Source: Zychaea mexicana (Eukaryota; Mucoromycota; Mucoromycetes; Mucorales; Lichtheimiaceae). Taken from it: DNA of 64,000 nt. The stretch covers positions 248,001 through 312,000 of the forward strand of contig NW_026516672.1 of NCBI RefSeq assembly GCF_025766255.1. Direction: 5' to 3'. The notes below the pieces were generated by a model. The model had not been told where the DNA came from, did no database searches, and saw only the letters and a program-made list of their open reading frames with translations. The translations under genes were made by a program, and so were the position numbers. Shown here piece after piece: positions 54,541-64,000 of this stretch; the first letter of the stretch is position 1, and the number at the start of each line of letters is the position of its first letter.

Positions 54541-55722
54541 GTTGTTGATGAGAATGGAGTTGAGCCCATGGACCTTGTTGTTGGCGAAGAGCTATTTGTT
54601 ATTGAAACAATAAGTTCTCGTACTCAATTTCTAATGAATAAACCTCCAGAAAGATCTATTCATACGATGGATCCAGCTTCAGCTGGAAGTCATGATGAAG
54701 ATGTTTCTATGGAGTTATTCGATAAGCGACGATACACATTTTACTTTGATGAAAAAAACTAGATGTTTTCATTTATTTTTTAGTAAGTGCTTAAGTGCTT
54801 CTGCGGCTACAAGGCAATTAGGTATTCATGTTCGTGAGGCTCAGCGATGGGTCAAACGTTATTACGAAGACCCTGAAAGCATTTTCGAGAAAAAGAAAAA
54901 ATCAGGTCGACGTCGTATTCTTGGGGAAGAGCATAAGAAATTTCTCCTAAATTACATTGATGACAATCCATCTGCTGTTGTAACTGAAGTAGCATAAATC
55001 GGAAGCAAAACTTTGTAGATCTCAATGTTCTCGTAGTACAGTTTACAATTTCATGACAACTCAGTGTAATCTGTCCATTAAACAGGCGCAATTCCAACCG
55101 GTGGAAAGGAACAGCGAGGAAAAAATTCAGCAACGGTACGATTGGGTTCAAAAGTGGCAGCAAACCGACCTGGATTTCACAACAAAATGCGTCTTTCTTG
55201 ATGAAGCAGCTTTTCACATTAACTCAAAACGAGGTATGGCTTGGTCAAGGAAGGAAACTCCTGTATGATAGTAGTTACAGTACCTACAACCAAGGCAAAC
55301 GCAACATCAGTTTTAGGTGCAATATCCGCAACTGATTTGATTAATGTGAGCTTGAGAGTTCCAAAGCGTATCAAAAAGAAAACGTTTGGACGTGCGACTG
55401 ATGGTTATAGCACAGGGACAGTGACAGGCCATTACCTAAGTTTTGTAAAGGCTACTCTCGATGAGATGGACAAATACCCCGAAATGAAGGGACATTACCT
55501 TGTCATGGAGAAAGCCCCTATCCACAGTTCGACTGACATTGGTAAATATATCAATTCACGAGAATACAGATTCGTATACATCTTCCTCCATATTTTCCCG
55601 AACTGAATCCAATCGAGCAATTCTGGTCAGTTGTCAAGAGCAAAGTGAAGCGACATAAGTTCTTGGGAAAAGAGACGCTAATGACTCGAATTAGTGAAGC
55701 CTGTGATAGTTTATATTATTAA
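54541..55722 (+). pseudogene. Frameshifted Tc1/mariner-like transposase
   Basis: Collinear pieces: an N-terminal acidic segment (DLVVGEELFVIETISSRTQF), a helix-turn-helix with LSASAATRQLGIHVREAQRW and RYYEDPESIFEKKKKSGRRR, FLDEAAFHINSKRGMAWS (first catalytic Asp), VTVPTTKANATSVLGAISAT, then the second catalytic site reading MEKAPIHSS where the family usually has an Asp-Asn pair, and finally YFPELNPIEQFWSVVKSK to a TAA at 55722. Frame breaks lie near 54995, 55250 and 55580. The lost second Asp and three frame breaks make it inactive. The family moves by cut-and-paste with TA targets. The 45-bp satellite starts 39 bp after the stop, about where the right terminal repeat should be. Confidence 0.87.
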
Positions 55723-55760: not shown

Positions 55761-57699
55761 CTACTCTAGCACCTAGACACTCCGCTTGGGTAGACTCTTA
55801 AAAGTCTACTCTACCACCTAGACACTCCGCTTGGGTAGACTTTTGAAAGTCTACTCTAGCACCTAGACACTCTGCTTGGGTAGACTCTTGAAAGTCTACT
55901 CTACCACCTAGACACTCCGCTTGGGTAGACTTTTGAAAGTCTACTCTAGCACCTAGACAATCCGCTTAGGTAGACTTTTGAAAGTCTACTCTACCACCAA
56001 GACAATCCGCTTGGGTAGACTCTTGAAAGTCTACTCTACCACCTAGACAATGCGCTTGGGTAGACTCTTGAAAGTCTACTCTAGCACCTAGACAATGCGC
56101 TTGGGTAGACTCTTGAAAGTCTACTCTACCACCTAGACACTCCGCTTGGGTAGACTCTTGAAAGTCTACTCTACCACCTAGACACTCCGCTTGGGTAGAC
56201 TCTTGAAAGTCTACTCTACCATCTAGACAATCCGCTTGGGTAGACTTTTGAAAGTCTACTCTACCACCTAGACACTCCGCTTGGGTAGACTCTTGAAAGT
56301 CTACTCTACCATCTAGACAATCCGCTTGGGTAGACTTTTGAAAGTCTACTCTAGCACCTAGACAATGCGCTTGGGTAGACTCTTAAAAGTCTACTCTACC
56401 ACCTAGACACTCCGCTTGGGTAGACTTTTGAAAGTCTACTCTAGCACCTAGACACTCTGCTTGGGTAGACTCTTGAAAGTCTACTCTACCACCTAGACAC
56501 TCCGCTTGGGTAGACTCTTGAAAGTCTACTCTAGCACCTAGACAATGCGCTTGGGTAGACTCTTGAAAGTCTACTCTACCACCTAGACACTCCGCTTGGG
56601 TAGACTCTTGAAAGTCTACTCTACCACCTAGACACTCCGCTTGGGTAGACTCTTGAAAGTCTACTCTACCATCTAGACAATCCGCTTGGGTAGACTTTTG
56701 AAAGTCTACTCTACCACCTAGACACTCCGCTTGGGTAGACTCTTGAAAGTCTACTCTACCACCTAGACACTCCGCTTGGGTAGACTCTTGAAAGTCTACT
56801 CTACCATCTAGACAATCCGCTTGGGTAGACTTTTGAAAGTCTACTCTACCACCTAGACACTCCGCTTGGGTAGACTCTTGAAAGTCTACTCTACCATCTA
56901 GACAATCCGCTTGGGTAGACTTTTGAAAGTCTACTCTAGCACCTAGACAATGCGCTTGGGTAGACTCTTAAAAGTCTACTCTACCACCTAGACACTCCGC
57001 TTGGGTAGACTTTTGAAAGTCTACTCTACCACCTAGACGATGCGTTTAGGTAGACTCTTGAAAGTCTACTCTAGCACCTAGACACTCCGCTTGGGTAGAC
57101 TTTTGAAAGTCTACTCTACCACCTAGACAATGCGCTTGGGTAGACTCTTGAAGGTCTACTCTACCACCTAGACACTCCGCTTGGGTAGACTCTTGAAAGT
57201 CTACTCTACCATCTAGACAATCCGCTTAGGTAGACTTTTGAAAGTCTACTCTACCATCTAGACAATCCGCTTGGGTAGACTTTTGAAAGTCTACTCTAGC
57301 ACCTAGACAATGCGCTTAGGTAGACTCTTAAAAGTCTACTCTACCACCTAGACACTCCGCTTGGGTAGACTTTTGAAAGTCTACTCTAGCACCTAGACAC
57401 TCCGCTTGGGTAGACTCTTAAAAGTCTACTCTACCACCTAGACACTCCGCTTGGGTAGACTTTTGAAAGTCTACTCTAGCACCTAGACACTCTGCTTGGG
57501 TAGACTCTTAAAAGTCTACTCTACCATCTAGACAATCCGCTTGGGTAGACTCTTGAAAGTCTACTCTACCACCTAGACACTCCACTTGGGTAGACTTTTT
57601 AAAGTCTACTCTAGCACCTAGACACTCCGCTTGGGTAGACTCTTGAAAGTCTACTCTAGCACCTAGACAATGCACTTGGGTAGACTTTTGAAAGTCTAC
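55761..57699. repeat. 45-bp satellite array, about 43 units, each with an internal hairpin
   Basis: The word AGTCTACTCTA recurs every 45 bp without one insertion or deletion along the array (line phase is kept every 180 bp from 55801 to 57601). Each unit holds GTAGACT...AGTCTAC; in the T variant it is the perfect dyad GTAGACTTTTGAAAGTCTAC (9-bp arms, 2-nt centre). Units vary at a few positions (CTACC/CTAGC, ACC/ATC, CACTCCGC/CAATCCGC/CAATGCGC). A 13-unit block (585 bp) is repeated: the ATCTAGACAATCCGC variants at 56221 and 56311 recur at 56806 and 56896 with the same neighbours. No unique spacers, so not CRISPR. Confidence 0.97.
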
Positions 57700-57771
57700 A
57701 TATTTGAAAGTCAGTGGACAAAAAAAACATATGGATTGCGTCCCTTTTTCTTCTTCTCACGTTATTTCACC

Positions 57772-58026
57772 ATAACAAAACTATTAAGAATATGTCCCTA
57801 CTGCAACAATGACAACAACATATATTCAGCTAATCAGAAGGTTAGAATGCACGCCTTTAAGCAACACAGCGTGTTACTGCTAAGCAGCCACAACACAGTA
57901 AAGCCCGTGATCAATTCTGAAGCAAAGAGTGTATTGTATTTGTGTCCTTGCTGCAACCAAGTCATGGAATGTAGAAGCGAATTTAGGCAGCATGTTGATG
58001 AACACAGTTTCAATGTCACCACCACC
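57772..58026 (+). pseudogene. Zinc-finger fragment at the satellite/AT-rich junction
   Basis: An open frame running from the satellite to 58107 contains two C2H2-like fingers: ICPYCNND with later MHAFKQH, and YLCPCCNQVMECRSEFRQHV with DEH. The second has the standard Y-x-C-x2-C, F, H-x3-H spacing. There is no proper start codon upstream outside the satellite, and the frame ends in AT-rich, non-coding-looking hydrophobic residues. Base composition is ordinary, unlike the AT-rich DNA that follows. Probably part of a host-like or transposon gene cut by the AT-rich insertion. Confidence 0.5.
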
Positions 58027-58105
58027 TTCCCCATTGGGTACTACATTACCTTATTAGTTATAAATTTATATTTGTTTATTAAAGAACTATTAATTTTTTA
58101 TATCT

Positions 58106-58130
58106 AAATTGATTTTTATAATATAAATAG
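58106..58130 (+). promoter_or_regulatory. TATA-like motif before the AT-rich transposase
   Basis: AAATTGATTTTTATAATATA followed by AATAG lies 3 bp before the ATG at 58134. It resembles the motifs before the antisense ORF (60205-60235, minus strand) and the Rep-like gene (61760-61790). Confidence 0.4.
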
Positions 58131-58133
58131 AAA

Positions 58134-59242
58134 ATGGAGCAAATAGATTATACAACATTAATTACAGAGGAAGTAAATACTATTATTACCAATTATTAGA
58201 CATTTCTTGAATGGAATTGGCCTATTGTGCATAATAAATTTAAACATAGAACACAAATAAAACATATTAAATTTATTGAAAAAATTAAAGATATATTATT
58301 AAAAAAATTAGGTTATACAGCTGTATTTTTTTTTTTAGTTGTACTATACACAAATAAAGAGTATCCAGCTCCTTATTTTGAATTAGAAAAAGGCTTATTT
58401 TTATTATATCATTTAGTTTCTGGTATTTCTAGAGATGAAATTGAAAAATATTTACCTCAAAGTACATTTCATACATTTTATAAAAAATTTTTGGATGAAT
58501 GAAGAGAATTATAAAAGAATTAATAAAATAGTAAATGATTTATTAATGTATATGTTTTCAAATATAAAATTACGTGTTTTGTCTGCAAGAAAATATAATC
58601 CAGATTTATTTAAACATGTAACACTTATTTTAGATGGTCATGATTCACGAATTAATTATACAGATACGGATTTAGATAGATCACGTTTATATTCATATAA
58701 ATTTAAAAAGAATGGTGTACGCACACAATTTGCAGCTGATATTAATGATATGATAATTTTTATATCAGAAAGTGAATTCTGTGTAGATAGTTCTGATGGT
58801 AGCATGTTTTTAAATATGAAACTTTATAATAAAATGAATCAAAATGATACTTTAGCTGTTGATGGTGGATATACTTTGTTCATAACACAGTTTACTGAAC
58901 TTGCTACAGAAAAAGGATATGATTTTAGTAATGATAACTTTGTATATCCAATTCGTAAAAATATAAATGAAAATTTAACTATTACTGAAGAACATTTTAA
59001 TAATACATTTGGAAGCTTTAGAAGTAAAATCGAAAATCAATATTCTGAAATTGGAAATAAATTTTATCGTTTTAATAATAATAAATCAATTGTAAAGATG
59101 GATAATATTAGATATTATAATCTTCAGTTCGTGTTGCCTGTTTATTATTACAAAGTTTGTAGAAGTATTTAATATACCTATTTTACCACATCATAAAATA
59201 TGGCATAGTCCTGATTTTGATATTCCTATTGAAAAAAATTAA
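58134..59242 (+). pseudogene. AT-rich DDE transposase (DDE_4/Harbinger-like), broken
   Basis: From ATG 58134 the frame meets a TAG at 58197-58199, a frameshift in an A/T run near 58490, and another near 59140. The pieces are otherwise collinear to a TAA at 59240-59242. The N-terminal helical part has EKGLFLLYHLVSGISRDEIE and STFHTFYKKF; the catalytic core has LILDGHDSRINYTD (first Asp), DTLAVDGGYTLF (second Asp) and FGSFRSKIENQYSEIGNKFY (Glu), the pattern of Tnp4-type DDE nucleases. The tail reads FNIPILPHHKIWHSPDF. Very AT-rich codons (AAT, ATT, TTA) set it apart from host genes. A chromodomain ORF follows 50 bp later on the same strand and may be its partner. Confidence 0.78.
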
Positions 59243-59292
59243 TTGACATAGTTGTTAGTAATAATAAACAAAATAAGGATAAGCTTGATAGA

Positions 59293-59652
59293 ATGGTACA
59301 ACTACAAAATAATTTATTGAATATGACATTATCAAATAATAATGAAATGGTTATAGATGATAATAATAGTGAATCAGATGATTTAGAAAATAGTGAAAAT
59401 AATAATGATATTCTTAAATTTAATGAACGTACTAGAAAAAGAAGAAGAAATGTAAAAGGAAAACAGCGTTCAACTGTATCATATGAAATAGAAAGTATCA
59501 TTGGACATAAAAAAGAAAAGAATGCATATTTATTTCAGGTAAAATGGGTTGGATATAGTAATAATGATAATAGTTGGTTATCTATTGATATATTTAACCA
59601 AAAAGAATTATTAAATGCATATATTGAAAGGCATAGTCTAGGCATACTGTAA
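59293..59652 (+). CDS. Chromodomain protein of the AT-rich element
   Basis: Intact 119-aa frame. Residues 1-65 are N/D/E-rich then basic (RTRKRRRNVKGKQRS); residues about 68-115 are a chromodomain (YEIESIIGHKKEKNAYLFQV, KWVGYSNNDNSWLSIDIF), keeping the aromatic Y, W and W positions of the methyl-lysine cage. Chromodomains in mobile elements can steer insertion to heterochromatin marked by methylated H3K9. It could be a separate gene or the detached C-terminus of the transposase just upstream. Codon use is as AT-rich as the transposase. Confidence 0.78.
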   Translation: MVQLQNNLLNMTLSNNNEMVIDDNNSESDDLENSENNNDILKFNERTRKRRRNVKGKQRSTVSYEIESIIGHKKEKNAYLFQVKWVGYSNNDNSWLSIDIFNQKELLNAYIERHSLGIL

Positions 59653-59838
59653 TAAGAACATAATATATATTAAAATTATATAAAAAATTTATGGAAAAAT
59701 ATTATTAAAGCATAAGAATAAAGGATTACCAATAGTAATTTTTATAGGTTTTCTTTTTTTTTAATTTTTTTTTCTGTTTTTTTTCAGGTTTTATATACAG
59801 CTCTTTTATCTCTATATTTTTAACACTATCATTAACTA
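59653..59838. other. AT-rich spacer
   Basis: T-rich 3' region shared by two convergent AT-rich genes; no gene. Confidence 0.5.
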
Positions 59839-60182
59839 TTAATAGCTTTTTTTTGGAATATGTAGCTTACTATATTGACAGCAACGAAAATCCTTTTTAC
59901 CATCAGGTAAATTTGTCTTGATTTTCTTCCCACAAAACTGTCTATTACGTTTTCCTTTTTTAAATTTATGGCTACAAAAACCATGATTCATAGATAAATC
60001 TAAGAAATGATCATTTGAAAAAAGAGATTTTATTTTATTTTTTAGATTTTTTGAATTTTTTTAATAATATCTTCTTCAACAAAATGATTGAATTCTGAAT
60101 CAATAAATGTATCAATTTCGTTACATAAATTGATTCTAAGATTAATGCGGTTGATAGGAAGATATTTATTTAATGCAACCAT
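59839..60182 (-). pseudogene. Antisense AT-rich ORF with a Cys/His cluster, frameshifted
   Basis: From ATG 60182 a frame of 46 codons (MVALNKYLPINRINLRINLC...) ends at 60042-60044. In another frame, directly continuing, it encodes HGFCSHKFKKGKRNRQFCGK then FRCCQYSKLHIP and stops at 59839-59841. The C-x-H, F-C, C-C and final H residues look like a small zinc-binding module. One frameshift in an A/T run near 60050 explains the break. I do not recognise the family. It is convergent with the chromodomain ORF and shares the upstream TATA-like palindrome type with the Rep-like gene. Confidence 0.45.
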
Positions 60183-60203
60183 TTTCTTTTTCTTTTGAAT
60201 GAT

Positions 60204-60223
60204 TTATTTTTATATAAAAATAA
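60204..60223. promoter_or_regulatory. 20-bp perfect AT palindrome upstream of the antisense ORF
   Basis: TTATTTTTATATAAAAATAA is its own reverse complement. It lies 22 bp before the ATG at 60182 (minus strand). Its core TTTTTATATAAAAA occurs again inside the palindrome at 60419-60450. Confidence 0.55.
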
Positions 60224-60418
60224 AATTCAATTTTACAAAAAAAAGTAATTGAGTTTGAAATTTATTTATTAGCAAATACTAATGGTGATAACTCTGCAAC
60301 ATTATTACATTTAAATTATTTATATATTCTGAATTCATTATTAATAGGTTTATTTTTTATTTAAGATAAAATTTAATTTGTAACCATTTTAAATTTTTGT
60401 TACTAACAAAAAATTTGT
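60224..60418. other. AT-rich non-coding edge
   Basis: AT-rich DNA upstream of the antisense ORF, with repeated GTTAC words near 60380-60420. No gene. Confidence 0.4.
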
Positions 60419-60450
60419 TACCAATAGTTTTTATATAAAAACAGTTGGTA
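60419..60450. repeat. 32-bp interrupted palindrome at the edge of the AT-rich block
   Basis: TACCAA ... TTGGTA flank the perfect inner palindrome GTTTTTATATAAAAAC. It sits where the composition changes from AT-rich to ordinary, so it may mark the terminus of the element or an origin-like structure. No matching copy was seen at the left edge. Confidence 0.55.
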
Positions 60451-60679
60451 ATGCATATGCGCCCCAATTGTCCTACTTAGATATTGTAAGATGTCAACAT
60501 TGTTGAACGATTTCACGAATACTTTGCTGCAAACTTAGCTAAGTTTTCTAGCATTTTGGATGTTGATCGATATTTCAACCACCTTTTGTAAATTGTTATA
60601 TTTACGGCCTGGTAATTCAATGGGTTCTCACTGACTGATATATTTTCTCATTTATAGGGCCATCTCTTTTGTATTTGTC

Positions 60680-61569
60680 TTGCAAAGACGAACAAAATAC
60701 GAATCTGTGCCTATCGAATATTTCCCCCCTTCTTTATTGGAGGTGACGCGTCAAGATATTTTGACCTCATTGGCACTACCCGATTCACTTGACCCTCACA
60801 TTTATATGGCTGTTAAAACCATTATCTGCGACTTTCACGAGAACAAGATCAAGAACTTGACAGCACGGCATTATTTGATCAATCTTGCAATGACAAAGGA
60901 AAATGTGGAACGCAACGTCATTTTAGCTATTGAATCTCTATTCCCTGTGCTCAAGGATTTAGATATCGGTCCTCTTCGTGAATCCGAACTTGCCGCCTCA
61001 TATACTCATCCTGTTATCCAAGCCTTATTATCTTATGATACCGATGGTAAGGTTGCAAGATGTGCCAACTGCATCCCAGACAATGGCATGGACGAGAATC
61101 GACGGCCAGATTACGAAGTCATGGTGTATGAGCAGTATCTACCATCTTATCGAACATGTTTTGGAGAACTCAAAGGTGAAGGATCCTCTGATACATTATC
61201 AGTAATGGACTTTTATCGCTTGGGTATATTTGCAAAATTGGAAATGGTATCTAGTAACCTCACCGGTGTACTATGCTTCCAAGCGCGTGGTTTATCAATC
61301 ACATTTTACGCCATGTTCACACAAATTCCACCATTTACGCATTTGTAGAACTTACAACTATTACATTACCCGAGAACAGGAATGAAACCATCTCAGTGCT
61401 GAGTATTTTGGATGATCTTTACAAAATTGCCATGTATCATAGCACACTTGTGCGGTCCCAGACCCCAAATACCAAGCACCCGACGCTGCCGTTCGAATTC
61501 GTGCAAGGCTCAAAAAGAACATTGCCAGCAAAACGCAAGCCTTCCTTGGGATTAATTTCTATCAAGTAA
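60680..61569 (+). pseudogene. Frameshifted uncharacterised gene, probably a multicopy Mucorales family
   Basis: The first frame from ATG 60680 encodes EYFPPSLLEVTRQDILTSLA, then SYTHPVIQALLSYDTDGKVA, DNGMDENRRPDYEVMVYEQY, CFGELKGEGSSDTLSVMDFY and GVLCFQARGLSITFY. It then shifts near 61305 into the frame continuing STIYAFVELTTITLPENRNE and SILDDLYKIAMYHS to a TAA at 61567-61569. Ordinary base composition contrasts with the AT-rich DNA on both sides. From memory, similar predicted proteins recur many times in Mucorales genomes; function unknown. The PDYEV...FGELKGEG pattern (E/D and GE-K spaced on strands) could be a nuclease-like fold, but that is speculative. Confidence 0.6.
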
Positions 61570-61759
61570 TTTCTTCTATCCTCCTACCAAGCTACCCACC
61601 CTCGGGGACCGGCCATGGTTATGATGATTTTAATGCGGTCTAGTAACCCTAGATGACTAATTAGCTAAGATATGTCAGGATAGCCAAACTAATTTTTATT
61701 GAAATAATTCATGCACGAATGTCTTGGCATGCATACATTTAAATTTTTGAAAAAAAATA
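61570..61759. other. Junction of ordinary and AT-rich DNA
   Basis: The composition changes near 61690. No gene and no obvious target-site duplication visible. Confidence 0.4.
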
Positions 61760-61790
61760 AAAATTGAATTTTTTTTTAATATAAAAATAA
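61760..61790 (+). promoter_or_regulatory. TATA-like motif before the Rep-like gene
   Basis: A segment of the form AAAATTGAATTTT, a T-run, AATATAAAAATAA lies about 65 bp before ATG 61856. It matches, with few mismatches over 31 bp, the minus-strand sequence at 60205-60235. Confidence 0.45.
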
Positions 61791-61855
61791 CACCACAGAA
61801 TATAAAGCAAGATATATTTCTTATATTTTTTATTTTTATTACTTCAACAATCGAC

Positions 61856-63482
61856 ATGAACCAACTCAACGTTCTCGCATTCTTAGCCATTACGGCTGAA
61901 TTTGTTCCTATTTTAGGAGCTACATTGACGCTCTTAATTGAAAGAGCAAAACACCTTGCTGAAAACCATCAGCATATTGAGTATGAACCTCTTGTCACAC
62001 AACTGAGGTCAGAACTCGAAAAAGACCTTACACAGGCTAAAGTTGATAAAAAAACTAAAAATAATACACGCAATAAAATAATTGGAAGAATTCGAGAATA
62101 TGTGAGATTCTTCAAATCCTCAAATCCTCAATTTTCCGATGCAATGTTAGAGGGTAACACCTCTGGTGCAGATTCCTCACAGGGCGGTAAAGAATTCCGA
62201 TTCCAAAACACTAAAGGGCTGTTCATATATATTTGTAAGGACTTCCATTTAACAAAAGAGCAAATCATGGAATGGTTTATAAAACATGAAGGCAATTGCA
62301 TGTGATGAAATTGCACCAGAAACCAATGAGAAACATGTACACATATAGATACAAATGGATGAGCGATTCGACACAAAAACAGCACGTAAATTCTCTACTA
62401 TTGATGGTGTTACTCCAAATATTAAACCAGGTGGTAATCCACAAAAGTCTATTAGCTATTGTATGAAAGGAATAGATTATATTTGTTATAATATGGATCC
62501 AAATTATGAAATTAAAACCAGAAAAATGCACCAACAGTTACTTGGATATCAATTAATTACTAAGCAGCTTAATATGCGGAAGGCTACCGAAATATATCCA
62601 GAATTGCTATGGAAATATGATACTGTAAAATCAAATTTAAATTCTTACTTTCATGATGCAGATATGGAAAATAACCCTGGAAATAAATTACATATGTGGT
62701 CTATGTTTGCTATTGAAACAATGTTTGGTGGCAAAAATAAGATACCACAATACTGGATTGTAGGTCCATCAAATGTAGGTAAGACATATAACATTGATGT
62801 ATTAGAACAAGGTGGTCATCGAGCATATCTAATGAATAAAGAAAATGATTGGTCAGATTATAATAAGGATGATGATTATGATTTTATGTATAATGAAGAA
62901 ACAGGTTCTGATTTCAAATTAACATTTTTAAACCAAATGTTAGAAGGAACACGGTTAAAACTTAATGGCAAATTCACAAAGTCAATAACTAAAAAGAAAA
63001 ATATGCCAATAATACTGAATAGTAACTATATGCCGCACATGTTATACAAAAACAAATCAGTATATGAGTTAGAGCCAACGCTCAATCGTTTATATATTAT
63101 CTATGTTGATAAGAACCGTAAAGGTCATATAATATGGAATCCATACACAATGAAGGTGAAGGATTATGAAAATAAATTCATGTATTATGAAAACATGGAT
63201 ATGTATGAGGACTTATACAAAGGTGAATTCGAAAACGAATACCAAGATCAGCATACATTTATCCGTTATGCACATAATAGTGGTCAGGATGATATTAAAA
63301 AATATACACCGATGGATAAAACAGTAGAGGAACTACAAGAATTAGCTGACACAGAAGAATATATGAAGGAACAAGAAGAAAAACATAATAGTAATAATAC
63401 ACAAAACAATAAACAACATAAACCGCCTCAACAAAATAATAGAGGATGGTCAACTGTAAAGGTACCATCATCAGTATTGTAG
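61856..63482 (+). pseudogene. HUH-endonuclease/SF3-helicase Rep-like gene, broken (CRESS-type)
   Basis: The first frame (61856-62305) has an unusual N-terminal extension of about 110 residues with a hydrophobic start (MNQLNVLAFLAITAEFVPIL) and a charged helix, then Rep motif I (GLFIYICKD). A frame break near 62298 follows; the next stretch carries HVH (motif II) directly before an in-frame TAG just upstream of ATG 62355. The second frame (62355-63482) has motif III (SISYCMKG, catalytic Tyr and Lys), Walker A GPSNVGKT, an acidic Walker B-like YDFMYNEE and motif C PIILNSNY. This is the rolling-circle Rep architecture of CRESS-DNA replicons and related plasmids. The two breaks make it inactive as it stands. 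Extreme AT-richness differs from host genes; the N-terminal extension is less AT-rich. The host virus or plasmid is unknown. Confidence 0.85.
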
Positions 63483-63495
63483 GCATTGGGAAGAT

Positions 63496-63945
63496 GTGTT
63501 TAATGATATAAAATGTGATGATGTTGTAAATGATACTACTGATTGGGAAAACCCACCAGAAGATATAGAGAAACATAAATACATAGATGTGAGTACATCT
63601 GAATCAGAGAAAAGCAGTGACTGCAACATACCAAATAATATACCAAAACGTAAAAAGAAAAAAAGACACATTAAAAATAAACGGAGAAACAAGCAAATAG
63701 TAGAAGAAATACAGCCAAAAGAATATTTTAAAAAGCATAAGGATATAAAACAGGCTATAATAGATGATATAGATATAACAAAAGAAACTGACGTCAAAAA
63801 TAAATCAACAGATACTAATATAAGTACAAGTATAACTAATGAATGCATAAAACATAAATATAATTGGGCAAGTAAACGAAAGGTTGATGCGGTCAGTTTT
63901 AATATGAAATTTTTTAATAAGCAAATAAGTAAGAAATTAATTTAG
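63496..63945 (+). CDS. Lysine-rich ORF downstream of the Rep-like gene
   Basis: 149-aa open frame starting 14 bp after the Rep-like stop. It is acidic at first (DDVVNDTTDWENPPEDIEKH), then has a strongly basic KRKKKKRHIKNKRRNKQ run (about residues 51-67), and N/I/T/K-rich segments. No recognised domain. It could be a second gene of the element (a nucleic-acid-binding or structural protein), or the C-terminal continuation of the Rep-like frame after a break. Codon use is as AT-rich as Rep. Confidence 0.45.
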   Translation: MFNDIKCDDVVNDTTDWENPPEDIEKHKYIDVSTSESEKSSDCNIPNNIPKRKKKKRHIKNKRRNKQIVEEIQPKEYFKKHKDIKQAIIDDIDITKETDVKNKSTDTNISTSITNECIKHKYNWASKRKVDAVSFNMKFFNKQISKKLI

Positions 63946-64000
63946 AGCTGAATACCATGTGTGGCCATATATTCATGTAGCATTTCCTGGGAATTAAACT

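Follow-up and report, generated by a model that had tools for sequence, protein, structure and literature searches.

The stretch of Zychaea mexicana DNA considered here (the window: 64,000 nucleotides, C295:248001-312000, in a genome of 50.3 Mb and 305 contigs) ends in two neighbouring mobile elements with about 1.1 kb of host-like DNA between them. The second of these, the Rep element, is the main subject of this report. It carries a gene for a replication protein (Rep) of the circular Rep-encoding single-stranded (CRESS) DNA type, convergent with a gene for a DDE transposase that ends in a chromodomain. The window contains the first 2.4 of its approximately 4.03 kb (61604..64000, +), beginning with GGGGACCGGCCATGG; about 1.6 kb lie beyond the window, up to a 3′ end, GGACGCC, at C295:313634. 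The element is flanked by a target-site duplication, CTC, one copy of which lies at 61601..61603 and the other, outside the window, at C295:313635-313637.

The Rep gene of this copy is broken by a frame change, a stop and a second frame change. By comparison with open copies, the N-terminal region and the first part of the HUH nuclease occupy 61856..62305 (+), with the frame lost near 62300. Nuclease motif III (YCMKG) and the SF3-like ATPase (GPSNVGKT) follow at 62349..63482 (+), with a stop just upstream, and the C-terminal tail (63460..63945, +), contiguous in open copies, is in a different frame here. The stop of Rep overlaps that of the element's own transposase-chromodomain gene, the end of which (FNSQEMLHEYMATHGIQL, then the stop) occupies 63942..64000 (-). 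This transposase is approximately 50% identical to that of the first, or left, element.

The left element (58034..60463, +) is a relic copy with the ends TTGGGTACTACATTACC and GGTAATGCATATGCGCC, a boundary common to its copies, and a CCA duplication at 58031..58033 and 60464-60466. Its DDE_Tnp_4 transposase (58134..59172, +; Pfam E 1.1e-7) is interrupted by stops and frame changes, and the chromodomain part (59233..59652, +; Chromo E 1.5e-9) is the C-terminus of the same gene; in open copies the two form a single open reading frame (ORF) of about 505 amino acids. Convergent with it lies a cysteine/histidine (Cys/His) ORF with one frame change (59839..60182, -), a relative of which, L057, has no Pfam family. 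The host-like DNA (60464..61600, +) is in neither element, and its first three bases are the second CCA. It includes a low-copy ORF (60635-61348) with 17 genome matches counting itself, the best long paralogue being 51% identical.

In a preliminary description 58106..63945 had been taken as one AT-rich island of a single composition. The ORFs on which this was based exist, with DDE_Tnp_4 and Chromo above the Pfam cut-off, the Cys/His ORF antisense and Rep in pieces, and the AT-richness is borne out by a GC content of 0.216 in the left element and 0.309 in the right part, against 0.435 for 1-58033. The island is nevertheless not continuous, being split at 60464-61603 by the host-like DNA (GC 0.405); as the ends and duplications of the two halves are separate, and the duplications differ, these are two elements and not a single island. 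The claim of one composition is weak, as the 3-mer distance between left and right (0.160; right-middle, 0.170) exceeds that between the right part and the nearest other window (0.142). The alternatives offered then, one family or two elements from the same source, were each half right: there are two elements in one family style, with a common promoter-like motif, a convergent two-gene layout and 3-bp duplications.

It could be argued from their distance of only 1.1 kb and from the promoter motif they have in common that the two form one composite unit, 58034 to C295:313634, that moves whole. The separate ends, the different duplications and the host-like DNA between them leave this reading next to no chance of being correct, and it was rejected. 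A further point against it is that no Rep match lay near the left-type transposase in any of 30 fetched loci (the transposases nearest that of the window). For this last reason the window transposase at 58.1-59.65 kb was also rejected as the partner of Rep. It belongs to a sister element, of which the Cys/His ORF is the second gene.

The Rep element across the genome

A family of elements with both a DDE transposase and Rep exists in this genome, as had been supposed, although the transposase visible in the window is not the partner of its Rep. The Rep query gave 107 genome matches, which merge to 72 places, not all of them independent, as they include duplicated regions and fragments. In 40 of the 72 a convergent transposase lies within 3 kb, and in 23 of these the match ends are 556-603 bp apart. 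The Rep-side transposases used in this count were the first 78 of 96 listed rows (75 merged places); the last 18, consisting of 14 left-type transposases and four short fragments, were dropped. That Rep can be lost is evident at C90, where its tail alone remains next to the transposase; at C115 there is a Rep unit from which the transposase has been deleted.

Rep units begin with GGGGACC and finish with GGACGCC. With the ends located by script, matching 3-bp duplications were found in 12 of 18 paired ends, where the expectation by chance is approximately 1/64 per row. The 18 pairs came from 30 loci, those without both ends being dropped (L077 and L078, the 3′ stretches of L023 and L010, contained no end), and two of the rows, L016 and L025, represent a single duplicated site. 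In left-type elements the duplications matched in 14 of 15 rows, two pairs of which are duplicate sites; these represent 15 of 30 loci, the other 15 having been dropped. In L046, the one exception, the script seems to have set the ends out of register; by eye the duplication is AAA. Compared by eye as candidate inverted repeats, the ends match at 11/17 positions in the left type (GTGGGTACTGCATTACC/GGCGCATATGCATTACC) and at 5/7 in the Rep type (GGGGACC/GGCGTCC).

Rep is of the CRESS type, with the HUH nuclease motifs HxH and YxxK, an HUH fold and an SF3-type ATPase, in a protein of about 700 amino acids with long N- and C-terminal extensions. The nearest solved structures are the Reps of tomato yellow leaf curl virus (TYLCV) and Vientovirus, and phytoplasma plasmids are matched weakly by tblastn (E 6e-3). 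The Rep ORFs are under purifying selection, with a median ratio of nonsynonymous to synonymous substitution rates (dN/dS) of 0.21 in 74 pairs with dS>0.1; the diverged lineages compared reach a dS of about 1.1. Related Reps occur in other Mucorales. Two relatives of Rep, P0003 and P0004, have by eye a Cys/His-rich stretch at the C-terminus and are perhaps fusions of the two types of second gene. No PHROG match was found, no Pfam match to Myb in either Rep or the Cys/His ORF, and no relative of Rep or the transposase was confirmed in viral contigs, including IMG/VR, which were scanned with short peptide patterns only.

Sister element, promoter-like motif and satellite

The left-type transposase has at least 151 genome matches, and among the matches listed the lowest are the Rep-side transposases at approximately 50%. 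A convergent Cys/His ORF lies within 2.5 kb in 34 of the best 70 transposase places. The nearest named relatives are in Circinella minor (up to 85% identity), with others in Lichtheimia, Mucor and Mortierella; PF01385 had no match in the genome. L084 (C113:505600-508950) contains a further, related transposase, which has about 61% identity to that of the Rep element. Among the matches listed neither a Rep nor a Cys/His ORF lies beside it, and downstream there is another AT-rich ORF with cysteines.

The genes of both elements are preceded by what reads like a promoter, a putative AAATTGA box followed by a TATA box, found before Rep, Cys/His ORFs and many transposases. Within the window the pattern AAATTGAWTTTTWWWWWWWTATAWAWA is exact before the Cys/His ORF (60207..60233, -) and before Rep (61761..61787, +), where a third match with three mismatches overlaps the second; 100 shuffles gave none. 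A similar sequence had also been described before the window transposase. There the order AAATTGA-TTTT-TATAAA is indeed kept (58106..58129, +), with a shorter spacing that the pattern misses even with three mismatches. The genome contains 162 matches (66+96) with at most one mismatch, against none for a reversed-pattern control, which shows the motif to be real. When the exact matches were assigned to the listed Rep, Cys/His and X genes (see below) and to both types of transposase, 57 of 84 fell within 1.3 kb upstream of such a gene, compared with 0-6 in six shifted controls, and the distances were mostly near-fixed: 28 stood before Rep (568-731 bp ahead of the matched stretch), 13 before left-type transposases (319-343 bp), 13 before Cys/His ORFs (137-533 bp, mostly 150-157) and three before X genes (22 bp). 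Before the Rep-side transposase the reverse complement of the 3′ ends reads AAAATTGAATTTTT, and the TATA stretch is looser. We take AAAATTGA to resemble the mimivirus early promoter. The remaining 27 exact matches had no assigned gene; among the matches without one are those at C281:84284, 91416 and 99600 and others on C2, C15, C68, C187, C224, C245, C250, C251 and C277. Most of these have the variant AATTTTTATAATATATATAAA, and together they suggest that other gene families also use this putative promoter.

A third, short type of element, X, was discovered through two head-to-tail junctions. Its terminal stretches, 5′ and 3′, and its motif resemble those of the Rep element, and it has one ORF of about 290 amino acids with 76 genome matches (L085 3790-4650, -; L086) and no Pfam family above the cut-off. 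This ORF and Rep have in common a linker resembling SSNPxxSDAML..SSQG. Five of six X copies with both ends have 3-bp duplications by eye (AAT, TAT, CTA, AAG and ACT), the sixth, C124, having none; copy C146 is without a 5′ end, and the first base of the 5′ end is variable. X is probably moved in trans.

Junctions of the form 3′ end-AATTTTAAAAATTCA-5′ end were found at C79, C115, C174 and C303, with none in the control. Three more (C51, C194 and C53) were predicted from the spacing of X, Rep and transposase and then confirmed by sequence; C51 and C194 probably represent a single duplicated site. All seven have the 15-bp spacer with 0-1 differences each, and they join X to Rep, Rep to Rep and Rep to X. 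Of the Rep ends checked (25 at the 5′ side and 23 at the 3′ side), the only ones with the spacer are the three that are themselves junctions. Rolling-circle concatemers were considered as the proven source of the tandems and rejected. At C115 the downstream unit has TCA on both sides and the spacer also ends in TCA, which an ordinary insertion next to an earlier copy would explain; at C79 and C174 recombination is indicated, since the right flank is in common with another single copy. No tandem was found with 34 exact left-type ends, against four pattern-matched with 73 exact Rep and X ends, numbers too small to establish a difference.

To the left of the two elements lies a tandem array (55761-57699; 45-bp unit, 43.1 copies, 92% matches), which ends a few hundred bases before the left element. 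Broken transposase pieces at 54692-55606, presumably mariner/IS630-like, match HTH_32 and DDE_3 weakly, below the cut-off, and similar-looking ORFs are present in L085. An ORF at 57670-58107, with paired CxxC and HxxxxH-like motifs and weak zinc-finger matches below the cut-off, runs into the left element from the left and is interrupted by its left end.

A proposed transposition cycle

The Rep element is probably best explained as a DNA transposon with two genes in about 4 kb, a DDE_Tnp_4-chromodomain transposase and a convergent CRESS-type Rep, that moves by the following cycle. The transposase would cut at the ends and insert the unit as in PIF/Harbinger-like elements, and the chromodomain may steer insertion or tethering to modified histones. 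The role we infer for Rep is to nick and unwind the excised element DNA and most likely to amplify a circular intermediate ahead of reinsertion. Cut-and-paste transposition would thereby become net-replicative.

Several results weigh against this explanation. Thirty-two of the 72 Rep places lack a convergent transposase within 3 kb, some being fragments, deletion derivatives or at contig ends, and among the matches listed no place pairs a full-length, stop-free Rep with a transposase that is likewise full-length and stop-free. Six of the 18 Rep rows do not match (L009, L019, L004, L008, L020 and L026). The left flank of L019 and the right flank of L009 belong by eye to the same transposase copy, one on each side, and match in ATA, which suggests exchange or recombination between copies; L020 and L026 each have a right flank in common with another copy, and the mismatches of L004 and L008 were left unexplained. 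No replication origin was identified in six folded stretches, of which only two 3′ ends stood out (9/200 shuffles as good for the Rep element, 4/200 for the left element), and an origin hairpin formed with the 15-bp spacer was rejected, 72 of 400 shuffled spacers folding as well. The structure model of Rep is poor outside its two domains (predicted local distance difference test, pLDDT, 50). That of the transposase is better (pLDDT 82.5) and has no PDB match at E 0.001; the best 50 PDB rows are chromodomains except for one weak TnsB (E 0.017). Selection on the Rep-side transposase is weaker, with a median dN/dS of 0.38 in 16 pairs, and 0.53 in the sole pair above a dS of 0.1.

Rep might instead be an accessory of transposition itself, binding, nicking or unwinding the ends in place of a Myb/SANT or Cys/His protein, with no amplification of a circle. 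We hold this to be possible rather than probable. The convergent slot does hold different genes, a Cys/His ORF, Rep or, on C113, yet another AT-rich ORF, and a paper on related elements reports a second ORF in most candidate autonomous PIF/Harbinger and NuwaII elements, that of NuwaII being Myb/SANT (Han et al., 2015; PMC4482050). The nuclease and ATPase motifs are both kept, however, which exceeds the needs of end binding. Circles have a larger part in another proposal, in which Rep copies both the Rep element and the X satellite as small persistent circles, closed by the junction 3′ end-AATTTTAAAAATTCA-5′ end, and copies lacking the spacer are inserted into chromosomes by the DDE transposase. 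A circle would be expected to leave one and the same spacer between partners in several orders; given the insertion and recombination indicated at C115, C79 and C174, we regard such a transposon-plasmid as unlikely.

It was also considered that a CRESS virus had inserted itself next to or within a transposon and has since been copied with it as a mere passenger. Fungi are known to harbour endogenous sequences resembling Rep (Liu et al., 2011; PMC3198968), and many Rep copies here are broken. The near-constant spacing of the genes, their overlapping stops and the position of the ends outside both genes are difficult to reconcile with a passenger, as are the purifying selection over diverged Rep lineages and the presence of Rep relatives elsewhere in the Mucorales. 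The listed copies have, antisense frames aside, no third ORF of 150 amino acids or more between their ends, although no dedicated capsid search was made. This explanation was rejected as very improbable, and the two-gene transposon with its own Rep is the one compared below with known systems.

Comparison with known systems

The Reps of geminiviruses, redondoviruses and circoviruses and of phytoplasma plasmids resemble the present one in combining an HUH nuclease with an SF3-like ATPase. They differ in that Rep is here a protein of about 700 amino acids inside a DDE transposon, where no capsid gene turned up, none having been specifically sought. Helitrons are eukaryotic transposons with an HUH nuclease, which insert without duplications and have no DDE transposase; the present element has a DDE transposase, 3-bp duplications and a CRESS-type Rep.

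DDE_Tnp_4 (PF13359), which was above the cut-off in both types of element, is presumably the family of the PHIS transposases. The PHIS superfamily (PIF/Harbinger, ISL2EU, Spy, Pangu and Nuwa) is similar in its two ORFs, 3-bp duplications, size of about 4 kb and, for NuwaI, a terminal GGG (Han et al., 2015; PMC4482050). The second ORF is here Rep or Cys/His instead of Myb/SANT, the chromodomain is C-terminal, the candidate terminal inverted repeats (TIRs), which in PHIS elements have about 12 bp or more, are weak, and the duplications (CTC, CAT, AAT, ATT, AAG, ATG, CTA, ACA, TCA and TTG) are not confined to TWA, ANT, CWG and TNA. The portions available of papers on PHIS (PMC4482050) and on fungal TET-carrying transposons (PMC12730594) do not name Rep as a second gene. 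Within the open-licence literature, as far as its texts were available and including PMC6668415, no PHIS element with a Rep was found; subscription papers and preprints are outside that scope.

The closest precedent is the geminivirus-like transposon of Tuber melanosporum, a repeated element with a Rep ORF and transposase ORFs, for which 42 Rep genes or remnants are reported (Liu et al., 2011; PMC3198968). The preliminary description, in which the combination was not one known from a described element, was therefore too strong: Rep and transposase within one repeated fungal unit is prior art. In the truffle element Rep is interrupted, one transposase ORF is interrupted and another truncated; it has 37-bp TIRs and no obvious duplications, and the fungal sequences cluster with SsHADV-1 (PMC3198968). 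Compared by description, the present elements, from a member of the Mucorales, differ in that each gene has open copies, the candidate TIRs are short and imperfect, 3-bp duplications are present and the transposase has a chromodomain. They unite in one mobile unit two mobility machines usually found apart, and whereas the broken truffle element was only suggestive, here a viral-type rolling-circle Rep is kept by selection in a DDE transposon with clear insertion marks. The long-standing question of whether a cut-and-paste transposon may take up a replication protein and so turn net-replicative can thus be put to the test, as can the idea that in eukaryotes CRESS replicons move among viral, plasmid and transposon modes of life; natural controls are available in the second gene, which can be swapped, and in the putative promoter that the elements have in common. 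As far as our searches of the open-licence literature go, what is new by comparison with these systems is the probable superfamily of the transposase together with its chromodomain, the duplications around whole units, the selection on Rep, the exchangeable second gene under a putative common promoter and the X satellite.

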